Source: Halobacteriales archaeon QS_1_69_70 (GTDB lineage: Archaea; Halobacteriota; Halobacteria; Halobacteriales; Haloarculaceae). Taken from it: a stretch of 64,000 bases of DNA. A model generated the notes under the pieces. That model saw only the letters and a program-made list of their open reading frames with translations, did not search any database and was not told where the DNA came from. The stretch is taken from contig PXRI01000036.1 of the NCBI GenBank assembly GCA_003021005.1, positions 28,296-92,295 on the forward strand, in the 5' to 3' direction. Positions 3,021 through 9,148 of this stretch are shown piece by piece; position 1 is the stretch's first letter; each line of letters starts with the position of its first letter. The position numbers and the translations under genes were made by a program.

Positions 3021-3431
3021 ATGCAACCACCAGAGTTGCGCCTCGATCGGCGCAGCCTCCTCGCCGGGACGGCTGCCACCTTCACGGGCGCCAGCGTCAG
3101 TAGCACTGCCGCCGCAACCAGTTCACAGAGCACCGCCGGCACCATCCAGTCGCTGGAGTTCTACTTCGCGAACGGCCTCCTGGACACGGAGCTCACCCCC
3201 GGCCTCGACGACGAGTACGTCGCGGTCCGATCGGAATCGACCGCCACCATCGTCGACGCCCTCTCGCCGGACGTGGGCAGAAACGAATCGGCGAACTTCG
3301 ACGGCACGCTGACGGAGTACCCCGACGACCGGGGAATCCCCCTCGTGGCGATCGACGACGAGAACGTCGGCGACGGGGTCGTGGTCGGCTGCGGCGGGCT
3401 CCCCGGTCGGTCGTCCAGACATAGTGTATAA
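3021..3431 (+). pseudogene. N-terminal fragment of a Tat-exported GATase-like protein
   Basis: 136 codons from ATG 3021. LDRRSLLAG is a twin-arginine signal (about residues 8-16) followed by a hydrophobic stretch and Ala-rich cleavage region. After the mature start comes IPLVAIDDENVGDGVVVGCG, which matches the strand-turn-strand element preceding each GATase-like unit in the next frame (PLVGVDDNAVAVG near 4490, PLVGVDESRNLAMVG near 5585). The frame then ends at TAA 3429. The continuation lies in another frame from about 3409. About 25 codons found between these elements in the second unit are missing here, so an out-of-frame deletion near 3385-3410 is the best explanation. Confidence 0.6.
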
Positions 3432-6400
3432 CAACGACCAGTACTACGGGCTGGAGCGAATCGATGCGTTCGTCGACTACGCCGAGGAGCGCGGCTACGA
3501 GTTCCGCAGTTCGATCGCATCGCCGGAGGTAGGCGACCCGAACAGGCGCAACGAGCAGTTCGTAGCCGCCCTCCAGGCGGAGAACCCGGACGCGGTGATG
3601 CTGGTCTGTCCCAACCGGTTCGAACAGCCCGAGTTGGAGGTGCTCCGCCAGTACGTTCAGGACGGCGGCGCGGTTCTGCTGATCGACCAGTCCGACTTCG
3701 TCGTCGAAGAGGTCGACCTCACCGATGGGCTGCTCGGCACCGGGAAAGTCGACCGGGTTCCGGACCCCAACGACATCGCGGAGGCCGCAGAGAACGGGAA
3801 CCTGAGGAAGGCGAACAATGAAGCTAACCCCAACGAAGGGGACAACGAGACGCAGGTAGACTCCTCGACGATCCTGAACACGATTGCGGAGTACCTCGGC
3901 GCGGCCTTCCGGTTCAACGACGGCAGCGTCGCCGACCGGGCCAACAGTTTCGCCGGCGCCGCGGTCACCGCCAGGTCGGGCGGCGGTGATATCGGCGGGG
4001 AGGTATCCGGAGAGCAGCCCGAGGTCGGGACCGCCGGGGAGAAGATCTTCTTCACCGGCGGGTTCGACACCGACCGGTTCCCGCAGCTGTTCGACGACCG
4101 CGACGGCCTCGACGGCGACGACGCGTTCTTCAGATACCGCGCCCCAGTCGATTATGTCATCGACGGGGACAGCATCTCGTTCAAGTGGGTGAGCGAGGAG
4201 GATGGCGTCTTCGACACGCGAGCACTCGGCATCGACACCCCCGAGGACGGCGGCGACCAGCCGTTCGAGCGGCCCGTCGAGTGGGAGGGCCTCGCCAACG
4301 AGGACCTGCCGGTTATCGGCACGGGGGAGCTTCAGGTCGAACAGGCCTGTAGCCTCCTCGATACCGGTCGAAGGCCCATCGCCCCGGACGACCCGGACAT
4401 CGCGGTCTCCTCCGCGGATACCGCCACCAACGAAGCCCCCGGCGACGGGAACGGGAGCGCCACCGTCGACTACGGCGAGGGACCCATCCCGCTGGTCGGC
4501 GTCGACGACAACGCCGTCGCCGTCGGCTCCCTTCTCGTCGATGGTGGCACGGGAGATGAAAACACCAACGAGGATCTGTCGGTTGCGAGTTTCGACTTCC
4601 TCTTGAACGTCTGGGACGACCAGACCGGCGGCGGCAAGACCGTCCTCTACGACGAGAGCCACGGCCAGCCCGCCCTCGGTGACAAGTACGGCCCGTTCGT
4701 AGACTACGCCACCTACCAGGAGGGCGAGAACGACACCGGAATCGGTGCCCCCGCCCGGCCGAAGGCGGTGTACGACCTGCAATCCAGCCAGGACCTGCTG
4801 GCGGACCTCGACGGCGCCGCCGCCGTCTGGATTACGCCGCCCGACGAGTCGTTCAGCGGCCAAGAGATCGCCCGGCTCCGCCAGTTCATGAACGACGGCG
4901 GCTCCGTGTTCCTCCACGGGATGGATGCGACGAGAGAGGACGCCTTCACCGCCAACCTCAATCAGTTGGCCCGGCGCCTGGGCATCCGCTTCCGCTTCAA
5001 CGCCGACCGGGTCGTCGACTCCGACAACGACCCCTACCTCAGTGCCCGCAACTTCAATCACGACTACCCGTTCTTCCTCCTGCGACAGTGCGACACGAAC
5101 ACTGATTACGACAGGGATAGGTACTTCGGACACGACTACCTGATATCCTGGGGGAACATCGCGGGCCTCTCGGGGGCCGGGGGGCTCGTGTTCGAGGATC
5201 AGGTCGCCGAGTTCGAACTGGACCCCGACGCCGCCGCGCTCGACGGCCTCGGCCGCCCGCTGGGCTACCTCTATGTGGACCTGGACAACGACGGCGAGGT
5301 CGAGACTAACTACAACAAGTGGACGCTCGAGCAGGGGCTGGCCCGCGTCTACGACGGGGGACACAGCAGGCACGACGAGTTTCTGAAGGCGGAGCTTCGG
5401 GCCAGACGCGACAACCGCGGCCTGTGGCGCAAGAGCGAGCCGCTCGAGACCGGGCCGATCCGCAACCGCCCGGTCGAGGAGCTGTACGTTCCGCAGGCGA
5501 CGGCTGTCCGGACCGAAAGCGGCCGGCTCCGGCGGTCGCGGGCGCCGGTGCTGGCGGAGCCGACCGCCAGCGACTCCGAGGCGCCGCTGGTCGGCGTGGA
5601 CGAGTCGCGCAACCTCGCGATGGTCGGCGGCCCGATGCCTGCCGAGAGCTACGAGATCCGCGAGGATGACTACCGGTCAGTGACCTTCGTCACCGACCTC
5701 GACCCGTTCCAGGTGAACACGGCGGGCTACGAGAACTACGCGTTCCTGGCGAACCTGCTGTTGACGCTGTCGGACCGCGACGGGGACGTCTACATCGACG
5801 GCGGCCACTCGCAGTTCGGCGGCGGTATCGACCGGTTCGGCGGCAACTACACGCTGTCGGCGGAGGACTCGCGGTATCTCGACCGGTTCCTCGAGGGCGT
5901 CAACGTCGGCTACAACGGCATCAACGATATTCCCGAGAACTTGCTGGACGGGATGGACGGGCTGGCGCCGTCGCGGGCGCTGATCGTGACGACGCCGCGG
6001 ACGCCGTTCACCGACGAGGAGGTCGCGGCCGTCGAGCAGTTCATCGACGCCGGCGGGTCGGTGGTGCTGATGGGCAGCGCGGAGGCGCCGGACAGAGAGA
6101 CGGCGTTCCTGAACGACCTGGCGGCACGGCTGGGGACGGACCTGCGGATCGACGGGGCGCCGGTGCTGGACGAGATCAACAACCTGCGCGGGCAGGCGCG
6201 GCTGCCGACGACGAGCAACCTGAACCGGCAGTTCGACGACATGGGGCTGTTCGACGAGGTTCCCGTGCGGCAGGTCGACCGGGAGATCGACACCCGGACC
6301 ACCGTCAACGCGGCGGGGTCGCGGTCGGTTCCGGAGATCGTCGAAGAGGACGAGATCTTCCGGATCGACGTGACCGTCGAGAACGTCGACCGGCCGGTGA

Positions 6401-6951
6401 AGATCCGGGACGCGGTGGAGGGGAGAGCGCTCCGGTCCTCGAACGTCATCGAGGAGAAGGGCGACGTGACCCACGTCGAAATGGGCGGTCGTGGAGCAGA
6501 ATCTGGCTATGACCCGAATAAAATCGGCTCCCCGGCGCTGAACTACGTCGAGCTGGGGGAGGTAACCCCGGAGGACGTGAAGGGCGACCGGACGGTGACG
6601 CGGTCGTACTTCCTGGAGTACCGGATCAACGACCGGAACCTCAAGAGCGGCACCTCGTCAAGCAATACCGTCTACAATATCGTTGAATTCGAGACCGGCC
6701 CGACGATCGCGGCGTTCTACGCCGGCCCCGAGAACAAGGAGTTCCTCGGGTACGTCAACGAGAAGAAAGTCGGAGGTACCGATGAGACCCAGACGAGAGT
6801 TAGGCCGAAGGCGGACCCGGAGACTCTGACGGGCGACAGCCAGACGGCCGACACCGACTCCAACTCCGTCGCCGACGGAACAGCCGGGGAGGTCATCCGA
6901 TCAGCCCCGACGGAGGAAGACGAGGATGACGAGAGCATCCTGGACACCTGA
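3424..6951 (+). CDS. Giant DUF4350/GATase-like protein with a split thermonuclease domain
   Basis: 1175 residues, opening with a GTG that overlaps the stop of the Tat-signal fragment. It is probably the main part of one broken gene, since it lacks its own signal. Three GATase-like (DUF4350-type) units are visible: about residues 1-210, 350-560 and 720-930. Each has a strand pair (VLYDESHGQ, VYIDGGHSQF), a conserved turn such as NDGGSVFLHG, and a closing LARRLG-type helix. A staphylococcal-nuclease fold is split around unit 2: VIDGDS (245-250), R266 and LGIDTPE (268-274), then GLGRPLGYLY (609-618) with R611 and the closing helix ending NRGLW. The nuclease Asp, Arg, Glu and Arg positions are retained. 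A beta-rich C-terminal domain follows. As it stands the product would not be exported. Confidence 0.65.
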   Translation: MYNNDQYYGLERIDAFVDYAEERGYEFRSSIASPEVGDPNRRNEQFVAALQAENPDAVMLVCPNRFEQPELEVLRQYVQDGGAVLLIDQSDFVVEEVDLTDGLLGTGKVDRVPDPNDIAEAAENGNLRKANNEANPNEGDNETQVDSSTILNTIAEYLGAAFRFNDGSVADRANSFAGAAVTARSGGGDIGGEVSGEQPEVGTAGEKIFFTGGFDTDRFPQLFDDRDGLDGDDAFFRYRAPVDYVIDGDSISFKWVSEEDGVFDTRALGIDTPEDGGDQPFERPVEWEGLANEDLPVIGTGELQVEQACSLLDTGRRPIAPDDPDIAVSSADTATNEAPGDGNGSATVDYGEGPIPLVGVDDNAVAVGSLLVDGGTGDENTNEDLSVASFDFLLNVWDDQTGGGKTVLYDESHGQPALGDKYGPFVDYATYQEGENDTGIGAPARPKAVYDLQSSQDLLADLDGAAAVWITPPDESFSGQEIARLRQFMNDGGSVFLHGMDATREDAFTANLNQLARRLGIRFRFNADRVVDSDNDPYLSARNFNHDYPFFLLRQCDTNTDYDRDRYFGHDYLISWGNIAGLSGAGGLVFEDQVAEFELDPDAAALDGLGRPLGYLYVDLDNDGEVETNYNKWTLEQGLARVYDGGHSRHDEFLKAELRARRDNRGLWRKSEPLETGPIRNRPVEELYVPQATAVRTESGRLRRSRAPVLAEPTASDSEAPLVGVDESRNLAMVGGPMPAESYEIREDDYRSVTFVTDLDPFQVNTAGYENYAFLANLLLTLSDRDGDVYIDGGHSQFGGGIDRFGGNYTLSAEDSRYLDRFLEGVNVGYNGINDIPENLLDGMDGLAPSRALIVTTPRTPFTDEEVAAVEQFIDAGGSVVLMGSAEAPDRETAFLNDLAARLGTDLRIDGAPVLDEINNLRGQARLPTTSNLNRQFDDMGLFDEVPVRQVDREIDTRTTVNAAGSRSVPEIVEEDEIFRIDVTVENVDRPVKIRDAVEGRALRSSNVIEEKGDVTHVEMGGRGAESGYDPNKIGSPALNYVELGEVTPEDVKGDRTVTRSYFLEYRINDRNLKSGTSSSNTVYNIVEFETGPTIAAFYAGPENKEFLGYVNEKKVGGTDETQTRVRPKADPETLTGDSQTADTDSNSVADGTAGEVIRSAPTEEDEDDESILDT

Positions 6952-7166
6952 CCCGGGACGACGGGGCTGGGCCGGCCGCGGGAGGCCCGGTCGGCTCACC
7001 GACCGCGGCTATAGCAAGTGCGACCCGGGCGAACGTCGGAGCGCGCTCTCCTTCCGCCACTACCGTCGGCGTCACCGCTGCCTCCGGCGGCGGAACGACG
7101 GAGAGTTGATAGATTCGAGGGCGAACAACGTATGGGAACAGTTGACCTAATTATCGTTACGTACCC

Positions 7167-7190
7167 GGATTATAAAACCATATTTACCGA
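7167..7190 (+). promoter_or_regulatory. Promoter of the thermonuclease gene
   Basis: Two TATA-like stretches, TTATAAAA and TATTTA, lie in an AT-rich patch about 45 and 31 bases before ATG 7214. The nearer one has roughly the spacing of a leaderless haloarchaeal promoter. Confidence 0.4.
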
Positions 7191-7213
7191 TTCGACCTGG
7201 CACCAGGCGTGTT

Positions 7214-8044
7214 ATGAAGGCAGAACATCCAGGTCGGACGGCTGTCGGTGTACTGACCCTCGCATTGCTCCTCGTCGTCGCCGGGGTTCCAGGGCCGATC
7301 GGCGGTGCCGACGCGGCAATCTCGGACACACAGGAGGCGACCGTCACCGAGGTGATTGACGGCGACACGGTCGACGTCCGATTCCCGAACGGGTCGACGG
7401 ACACGGTCAGGCTGCTGGGGATCGACACGCCCGAAGACAGCAGCGGGAACCAGCCCGAGGAGTACGAGGGCGTCCCCGACAACAGCACGGGGTCGAACTG
7501 CCTTGGCGACGAGGGCGGTGACGCCACGGACTACCTCACTCAGCGGCTGGAGGGCGAGACGGTGACCCTGGAGTACGATTCGGAGGCGGACAGGCGGGGT
7601 GACTTCGGTCGCCTGCTCGCGTACATCAAATATGACGGCGAGGACGTGAACTACGAACTCGTCAGAACCGGCCGCGCCCGCGTGTTCGACTCGACGTTCT
7701 CGCGGAGCGACAGCTACTACAGCGCCGAATCGAACGCGCAGGACAACCTCCGTGACCTCTGGCGCTGCCGGAACGCGGGCGGTCGTGGCGACATCGACAT
7801 CGAGGCCATCGAGCCGGACCCCGCCGGCAACGACAGCGAGAACCTCGACGACGGAAACACCTACACCTTCGGGACCGTGCTGCTCGTCCGGGGTGGCGAG
7901 GTGACCCTCCACACCGGGAGCGGGACGGACACAGTCACCGATGTGTACTGGGGCCGCTCCTCGCCGGTCTGGGACAACGGCGGCGAGAACGTGACGGTCC
8001 GGAACCCCGACGGGCAGGTCGGGACGACGCGACTCTACGACTGA
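7214..8044 (+). CDS. Secreted thermonuclease (SNase family) with a lamin-tail-like end
   Basis: 276 residues. A Sec-type signal peptide (about 1-34) is followed by a complete SNase domain: VIDGDTVDV, RLLGIDTPED, FGRLLAYI and the closing helix to DLWRC. The catalytic Asp, two Arg and Glu positions are present, so a calcium-dependent extracellular nuclease is likely. Residues about 195-275 carry the end of a lamin-tail domain (YTFG, VTLHTGSGTDT, DVYWG, VWDNGG). The segment that normally lies between the EGND-like opening and YTF in this domain is absent, so the lamin-tail domain looks internally shortened by roughly 25-30 residues, in frame. The stop codon TGA forms part of a repeat (8042). Confidence 0.85.
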   Translation: MKAEHPGRTAVGVLTLALLLVVAGVPGPIGGADAAISDTQEATVTEVIDGDTVDVRFPNGSTDTVRLLGIDTPEDSSGNQPEEYEGVPDNSTGSNCLGDEGGDATDYLTQRLEGETVTLEYDSEADRRGDFGRLLAYIKYDGEDVNYELVRTGRARVFDSTFSRSDSYYSAESNAQDNLRDLWRCRNAGGRGDIDIEAIEPDPAGNDSENLDDGNTYTFGTVLLVRGGEVTLHTGSGTDTVTDVYWGRSSPVWDNGGENVTVRNPDGQVGTTRLYD

Positions 8045-8079
8045 TACTGCCGGACGGAACTACGTGAATCGTAGTCCGG
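8042..8079. repeat. Inverted-repeat element, copy B (single end) forming a hairpin
   Basis: TGATACTGCCGGACGGA begins with the stop codon of the thermonuclease gene and matches the left end of copy A (1424-1440). No distal partner is found. Instead CCGGAC-ACTACG (8050-8064) pairs with CGTAGT-CCGG (8070-8079), giving a stable hairpin just after the stop. It could act as a 3'-end or termination structure between two convergent genes. Confidence 0.6.
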
Positions 8080-8111
8080 TCTCCCGTCGTGAGCAACTGT
8101 CGAGCGACCGA

Positions 8112-8717
8112 CTACAGGTAGCCGTCGGCCCGCGCCAACAGCAGGCCCTCCATCGTCGCGTCGTTGGTCGGGCCGCTGCGGGCGACCGCGAGGGCCTCCG
8201 CGACCGGGACCGTCCGGACGTCAAGGAACTCGCTGCCGTCGAGGGTCCGCTCGGCCGGCTCGAACTCCGCGGCCCACACGACGGCCCGCTCGTGGCGGAG
8301 GACGCCCGTCGCACACCAGAAGTCCTCCAGGAGGGTCACCTCGCCGGCCGCGATGCCGACCTCCTCCCGGAGTTCGCGGGCGCCGGCGGCGGCGTAGCTC
8401 TCGCCGTCCTCGACGATGCCGGCCGGCAGTTCGAGACACAGCTCGGCGACGGTCGGTCGGTACTGTTCGACCATCACGACCGCTGGCCCGGCGGACCCGT
8501 CGCCGGTCGGCTCCGGGAGATCGAGCGATGCCGGGTCGTCGACGACGGCGACGAGGACCACGGCGGGCGGCAGGTCCGCCCAGTAGTAGCGCTTCCGGCG
8601 GCCGTCGGGGAGTTGGACGAGGTCGTAGCCGCCGTCGTACCAGCCGGTCTCGTACTCCGTCGCCGACTCGAGCACCGGCCAGTCGTGGTCGGCCGGACTC
8701 GGGTCCGCCCCGGTCAT
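8112..8717 (-). CDS. NUDIX hydrolase, ADP-ribose pyrophosphatase-like
   Basis: 201 residues. The Nudix box spans about residues 106-128 (G-x5-E, then ARELREEVG), with the REVEEG-type core as REEVG, so it should hydrolyse a nucleoside diphosphate linked to another group with Mg2+. The upstream AVVMVEQYRP and the downstream FWCATGVLRHERAVVWAAEF segment resemble ADP-sugar pyrophosphatases. The start ATG overlaps the TGA of the upstream gene (ATGA), so the two are translationally coupled. The preceding genes 9564-8714 probably form the same leftward unit. Confidence 0.8.
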   Translation of the reverse strand: MTGADPSPADHDWPVLESATEYETGWYDGGYDLVQLPDGRRKRYYWADLPPAVVLVAVVDDPASLDLPEPTGDGSAGPAVVMVEQYRPTVAELCLELPAGIVEDGESYAAAGARELREEVGIAAGEVTLLEDFWCATGVLRHERAVVWAAEFEPAERTLDGSEFLDVRTVPVAEALAVARSGPTNDATMEGLLLARADGYL

Positions 8718-9148
8718 CCCTCGCCCCCGGAGACCCGCACGACCGTAAGCCGGTACCGGGTGCCGTTCACCCCGAGGTGGGCGACGTCCCCGACGGGCCC
8801 CTCGCCCCGCCGGTCGACGGCGTCGGGCGCGCGGGTCTCGAACTCCTGGAACTCCTCGAAGGGGGTGTGGGTGAAGGCGGCCTTGAACCCGACGACGCCG
8901 GAGTAGTAGGCCTCGGAGCGGGCCGGGTCGGCGCCCGCCTCGGCCGCCGCCACGGCGCCGAAGCTGTAGGGGAACCGGCGCTCGGAGAGGTTCTCGCCGG
9001 CGACGGCGGGGCCGGCGGCATCCGCTGCCGTGGCCTCGACGTAGTAGGGATCGCCGGTCGCGATGTGGGCCGGCAGGGCGCCGAGTGCGAGAAGCACCGC
9101 GAGCACGCCGACGATGGCGACGAGGGCGTTGCGCGTTACGGGTCGCAT
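8714..9148 (-). CDS. Membrane-anchored hypothetical protein
   Basis: 144 residues. One N-terminal membrane segment (about residues 7-27) leads to an extracytoplasmic domain of about 115 residues with YYSGVVGFKAAFTHTPFEEF and a C-terminal strand GVNGTRYRLTVVRVSG. I do not recognise the family. It overlaps the NUDIX gene start by 4 bases and its own start lies within the 3' end of the DUF5809 gene, so all three are likely co-transcribed. Confidence 0.65.
   Translation of the reverse strand: MRPVTRNALVAIVGVLAVLLALGALPAHIATGDPYYVEATAADAAGPAVAGENLSERRFPYSFGAVAAAEAGADPARSEAYYSGVVGFKAAFTHTPFEEFQEFETRAPDAVDRRGEGPVGDVAHLGVNGTRYRLTVVRVSGGEG

Follow-up and report, generated by a model that had tools for sequence, protein, structure and literature searches.

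A thermonuclease (SNase) gene whose two halves are held apart by another domain raises the questions of whether the halves still make one enzyme, where the intervening domain came from, and what it might do there. We addressed these questions for the open reading frame at 3424-6951 on the forward strand of the window, by which we mean the whole 64,000-nucleotide stretch of the Halobacteriales archaeon QS_1_69_70 that was analysed. The frame encodes 1175 residues and matches the Pfam SNase family together with GIFT/DUF4350 and related GATase1-like families. Read from the N-terminus, a truncated GATase unit comes first, followed by the first half of the SNase, a linker with the second GATase unit, the remaining SNase half, a linker with the third GATase unit and the C-terminal region. 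The initial annotation had described this frame, both SNase halves and the GATase-like unit between them, and each was found where it had placed it.

All features of the gene lie on the forward strand. The first, N-terminal GATase-like unit (3433-3960) is truncated and split, its GAT profile matches covering residues 4-96 and 143-179. The SNase first half (4126-4293) comprises strands b1-b3, residues D247, D249, R266, D271, T272 and E274, and the opening residues of the omega loop (EWEGL), as delimited by the SN profile (1.3e-26), the alignment and the strands of the structural model. The inserted unit follows at 4294-5112 (residues 291-563) and consists of a linker domain and a GATase1-like/GIFT (DUF4350) domain, identified by the GAT profile (3.7e-40), by the best stretch of the Pfam GIFT match, and by alignment columns that are missing in 17 of 17 uninterrupted rows. 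The SNase second half (5113-5448), with helix 1, strands b4-b5 carrying R611, and helices 2-3, is supported by Pfam SNase at 601-669, the SC profile (1.3e-33) and the model. The third, C-terminal linker and GATase-like unit (5476-6237; GLINK 685-785, GAT 785-938) precedes a C-terminal region with an acidic tail and without a Pfam match (6238-6951). The Pfam SNase model (PF00565) scores 27.9 bits against a cut-off of 21, with a match that runs through the second half only (601-669). Profiles that we built for each half match residues 207-295 (first half) and 590-675 (second half), and the linker and GATase-like unit occupies 302-553 between them.

The window protein keeps the full catalytic set of the nuclease, the equivalents of D19, D21, R35, D40, T41, E43 and R87 being D247, D249, R266, D271, T272, E274 and R611, so that the earlier claim of complete conservation holds at seven of seven aligned positions. 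Across 30 aligned sequences, nested and uninterrupted together, D19, D21, R35, D40, E43 and R87 are invariant (30/30), and the T41 position is occupied by T, S or A. In the alignment, the segment that the window protein has in addition to its uninterrupted homologues is residues 291-563, or 273 amino acids. The distance of about 335 residues given initially is correct as the separation of motifs (274 to 609) but overstates the insert, because it includes helix 1 and strand 4 of the SNase itself. Uninterrupted homologues read LGIDTPE, then ERxEEWEGI and within a few residues YLxxWxxxAT, whereas the nested homologues break after EWEGL/I and restart at YLxxWxxxA 241-276 residues later. The insertion point is identical in every aligned nested row: it falls after E43 and before helix 1, in the omega loop, and the sequence flanking it is conserved in both forms.

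To see how the halves relate in space, we ran AlphaFold2 on residues 205-687 of the window protein with an alignment of 12 nested and 17 uninterrupted homologues. The resulting model (mean pLDDT 73) has the order b1-b2-b3-[insert]-a1-b4-b5-a2-a3 and matches 132 of the 135 residues of staphylococcal nuclease in superposition (Z 18.3, rmsd 2.0); including uninterrupted homologues favours closure of the host fold. The superposed model residues span 31 to 465 and so lie on both sides of the insert, and a model of the homologue from Halosimplex aquaticum gives a similar result (mean pLDDT 77.7, Z 18.7). In the prediction, the two SNase halves thus come together as a single, normal OB-fold with three helices, as the initial annotation had supposed; the pTM of 0.56 in both models leaves the relative placement of insert and host uncertain. 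The large insert (241-276 residues) could in principle permit each half to pair with the halves of another molecule, or each half might be a domain in its own right, but neither half is or aligns to a complete SNase and in the model the two join in cis to cover almost the whole SNase, which makes such arrangements very improbable.

The inserted unit belongs to a recognisable family. PF23355 (GIFT) scores 59.7 bits against a cut-off of 27.2, with its best stretch at 461-533 inside the insert, PF14258 (DUF4350) scores 48.5 bits against 30.4 over the whole protein, and PF09822 is also above its cut-off in this reading frame. A conserved cysteine nucleophile was not found in the insert, where no cysteine column is common to more than 3 of the 13 nested rows. 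As read from these residues, the inserted unit is GATase-like in family only, and does not qualify as an active class I glutamine amidotransferase.

The nested order is a recurrent feature of haloarchaeal proteins. After near-copies were removed, the domain-order analysis yielded 20 nested proteins, 52 uninterrupted proteins with GATase units and 2 genes with the SNase alone. Homologues with the same nested order, which the initial annotation had proposed to look for, thus number at least 20 distinct proteins, and their presence there, including on a complete chromosome, rules out chance or an artefact of one contig. Nested proteins occur in Halosimplex aquaticum (L057, the complete chromosome, with an intact gene at 5896-8934), in Halovenus carboxidivorans, in two species of Haloarchaeobius and in numerous Halobacteriales that are uncultured. 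A search across 392 genomes in this order shows that the family is widespread, with near-full-length nested matches in about 12 genomes from several families. A pattern-limited scan of one genome per species gave 52 loci, every one of them haloarchaeal save for a short local match in a Desulfuromonadaceae record, beyond which that scan found no nested-form homologue outside the haloarchaea. Among plasmid records, the relatives by similarity are archaeal and nearly all haloarchaeal. No conserved operon context was seen, the gene neighbours varying between genomes.

The number of GATase-like units varies widely across the family. Archaeon A07HR60 (L071) and genome G306 (L117) carry two tandem inserted units within the SNase, and the former gene (L071:5665-9945) has weak dockerin/EF-hand-like matches at its C-terminus. 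Several tandem GATase-like units precede an uninterrupted SNase at L049, on the same contig as L102 of Natrinema altunense, and at similar loci.

A phylogeny of the individual GATase-like units separates the C-terminal units (31 rows) from the N-terminal and inserted units (55 rows), with support of 100/100 for each side. All 21 inserted units fall on the N-terminal side and none groups with the C-terminal units, and the two inserted units of archaeon A07HR60 are sisters. In most nested proteins the insert also carries a trailing stretch resembling the segment between the N-terminal unit and the SNase (TTxxF...DRxG). Taken together, the grouping and the trailing stretch indicate that the insert was copied from within the same protein, from its N-terminal linker and GATase unit upstream, trailing linker included. 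Two other sources, the C-terminal unit and an unrelated GATase-like gene, are ruled out by the unit tree. On the SNase tree with free topology, the nested label has to change up to 4 times, while placing the nested rows in one clade gives p-AU values of 0.18 for the full nested set and 0.195 when the window pair is left out. Several independent insertions may have occurred, and a single origin, with all nested proteins as one clade, is not rejected.

The window copy itself is an imperfect representative. Upstream of the listed reading frame and in another frame, positions 3021-3405 (reading MQPPELRLDRRSLLAGTAATF...) hold an ATG, a putative twin-arginine signal (RLDRRSLLAG) and linker domain 1; the twin-arginine motif was read by eye. 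This segment is 93% identical in DNA to sister genome G014, where it continues in frame, the two proteins being 89% identical. At the junction, 3406-3425, the window has 20 bp where the sister genome has 172 bp (L032 2501-2672), and this net deletion of 152 bp shifts the frame, so that the listed reading frame begins at the GTG at 3424; the initial annotation had overlooked this break. The true gene start is probably the ATG at 3021 with its putative twin-arginine signal. The sister copy has a loss of its own, of 98 bp matching approximately 5647-5744 of the window, which splits its gene (L031) in the third linker domain. In the SNase tree the window copy is on a long branch (1.62), and dN/dS between it and the sister copy is 0.43 overall. 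The third GATase unit has the lowest value (0.19), and estimates of 0.47-0.64, drawn from few substitutions, point to weak purifying selection on the nuclease halves and the insert. With its fast evolution and 5' frame break, the window protein is a divergent and possibly decaying member of the family, and the architecture is better studied in intact homologues. The same assembly holds two more nested paralogues (L038, G000:C7:1-6000, and L039, G000:C17:1-6000), each spread across three frames on a contig that starts inside the gene, which suggests either that a repeated gene disrupted the assembly or that the copies decayed in parallel. The frame breaks of all three copies may reflect genuine decay, or else errors in assembling a repeated gene.

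These breaks bear on whether the nested order means anything at all. If the window gene were a decaying or misassembled copy, the order of its domains could be functionally meaningless, and the 5' frame break, the broken paralogues on contigs that start within the gene, and the separate 98-bp loss in G014 would all fit. Such decay could concern the window copy and leave the architecture untouched, however, and the nested order occurs in intact reading frames on a complete chromosome and in many assemblies with its catalytic residues kept, so we regard this explanation as quite unlikely. It is also unlikely, if somewhat easier to entertain, that the nested form is a dead nuclease whose cleft the insert obstructs and which persists as a surface-binding protein built from three GATase-like units. 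The size of the insert in a loop adjoining the active site and the relaxed dN/dS in the nuclease halves of the window pair speak for a loss of activity, but the equivalents of D19, D21, R35, D40, E43 and R87 are invariant in all aligned nested proteins, and such invariance across family-level divergence would be unexpected had catalysis been lost.

We consider it probable that the nested protein is an exported, calcium-dependent nuclease with a single OB-fold, carrying a GIFT copy in its omega loop and using its GATase-like units for binding, one of them at the mouth of the cleft. The linker and GATase unit was copied into the omega loop on one or a few occasions during haloarchaeal evolution, and some lineages duplicated the inserted unit again inside the nuclease. 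The protein would be exported folded through the Tat pathway; by pattern, most nested homologues have twin-arginine starts, as do uninterrupted members. Its likely role outside the cell would be calcium-dependent cleavage of extracellular nucleic acid, a role also proposed for Hvo_1477. Hvo_1477, the closest haloarchaeal SNase that has been studied, is a putative surface thermonuclease, and cells need it to grow on extracellular DNA (PMC3929857). The GATase-like units, which are without the conserved cysteine nucleophile, might serve as binding modules by analogy with GIFT domains, for which sugar binding has been proposed (PMC7226087), and the inserted one, sitting at the mouth of the active-site cleft, could tether the enzyme or restrict which substrates gain access. 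A bolder version, to which we give only an outside chance, would make the inserted unit a ligand-sensing lid, such that a glycan or other ligand alters the omega loop and switches or redirects the nuclease. If true, this would be a natural allosteric nuclease made by copying a sensor module into an active-site loop.

SNase has served as a classic protein-folding model, and its flexible omega loop has been studied extensively. In the nested proteins that loop holds an insert about twice the size of its host, with every catalytic residue retained. In a survey of 48,263 paired measurements, 77% of insertion events had an insert smaller than the host (PMC13114784). Proteins with 0, 1 and 2 inserted units coexist in haloarchaea, so natural pairs allow direct tests of how the insertion affects folding, activity and the choice of substrate.

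The gene directly downstream, in the window (7214-8044, forward strand) and in G014 (L031) alike, encodes an SNase with a lamin-tail-like domain (in the window, SNase 7e-14; LTD 2.5e-06, the latter at 28.3 bits under a curated cut-off of 34.3). The initial annotation took it to carry the same nuclease uninterrupted; its SNase is indeed uninterrupted, but it is a more distant relative, and by its domains appears to be of the same general type as Hvo_1477. The real uninterrupted counterparts, of GATase-SNase-GATase order, are found in other genomes, such as Haladaptatus halobius (L059) and Haloferax larsenii (L074). They share with the nested form the flanking linker and GATase units, the SNase and, by pattern, the twin-arginine start, and differ in having no unit within the SNase and, in some cases, in ending with a lamin tail domain.

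Hvo_1477 of Haloferax volcanii, grouped here with nucleases of the NCBIfam EcnA type, has its SNase in an exported haloarchaeal protein, as is probable for the nested form, and is tied to the use of extracellular DNA (PMC3929857), whereas its SNase is uninterrupted in a protein of 327 residues with a lamin tail domain and a lipobox (PMC5118699), and GATase-like units are not described there. The window protein scores 44.1 bits against the EcnA equivalog, below its cut-off of 180, and has no Pfam match to a lamin tail domain. The inserted unit is of the same sequence family as the GIFT/DUF4350/GATase1-like domains of GldG, IFT52 and Wbp1/OST48, but the units here are multiple and one lies inside a nuclease. 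We found no description of DUF4350 with a thermonuclease in haloarchaea, and no catalytically complete SNase with a larger GATase-like insert, in the open-access literature searched. Within that literature, the earlier statement that no nuclease with this nested order of domains was known stands. An SNase-type fold split by insertion does have a published precedent in Tudor-SN (SND1), whose SN5 domain contains an inserted Tudor domain and has degenerate metal-binding residues (PMC5900569). In both proteins another domain interrupts a fold of the SNase type; Tudor-SN is eukaryotic and intracellular, and its SN5 is non-catalytic, whereas the haloarchaeal protein combines a GATase-like/GIFT insert with a nuclease whose catalytic residues are kept.
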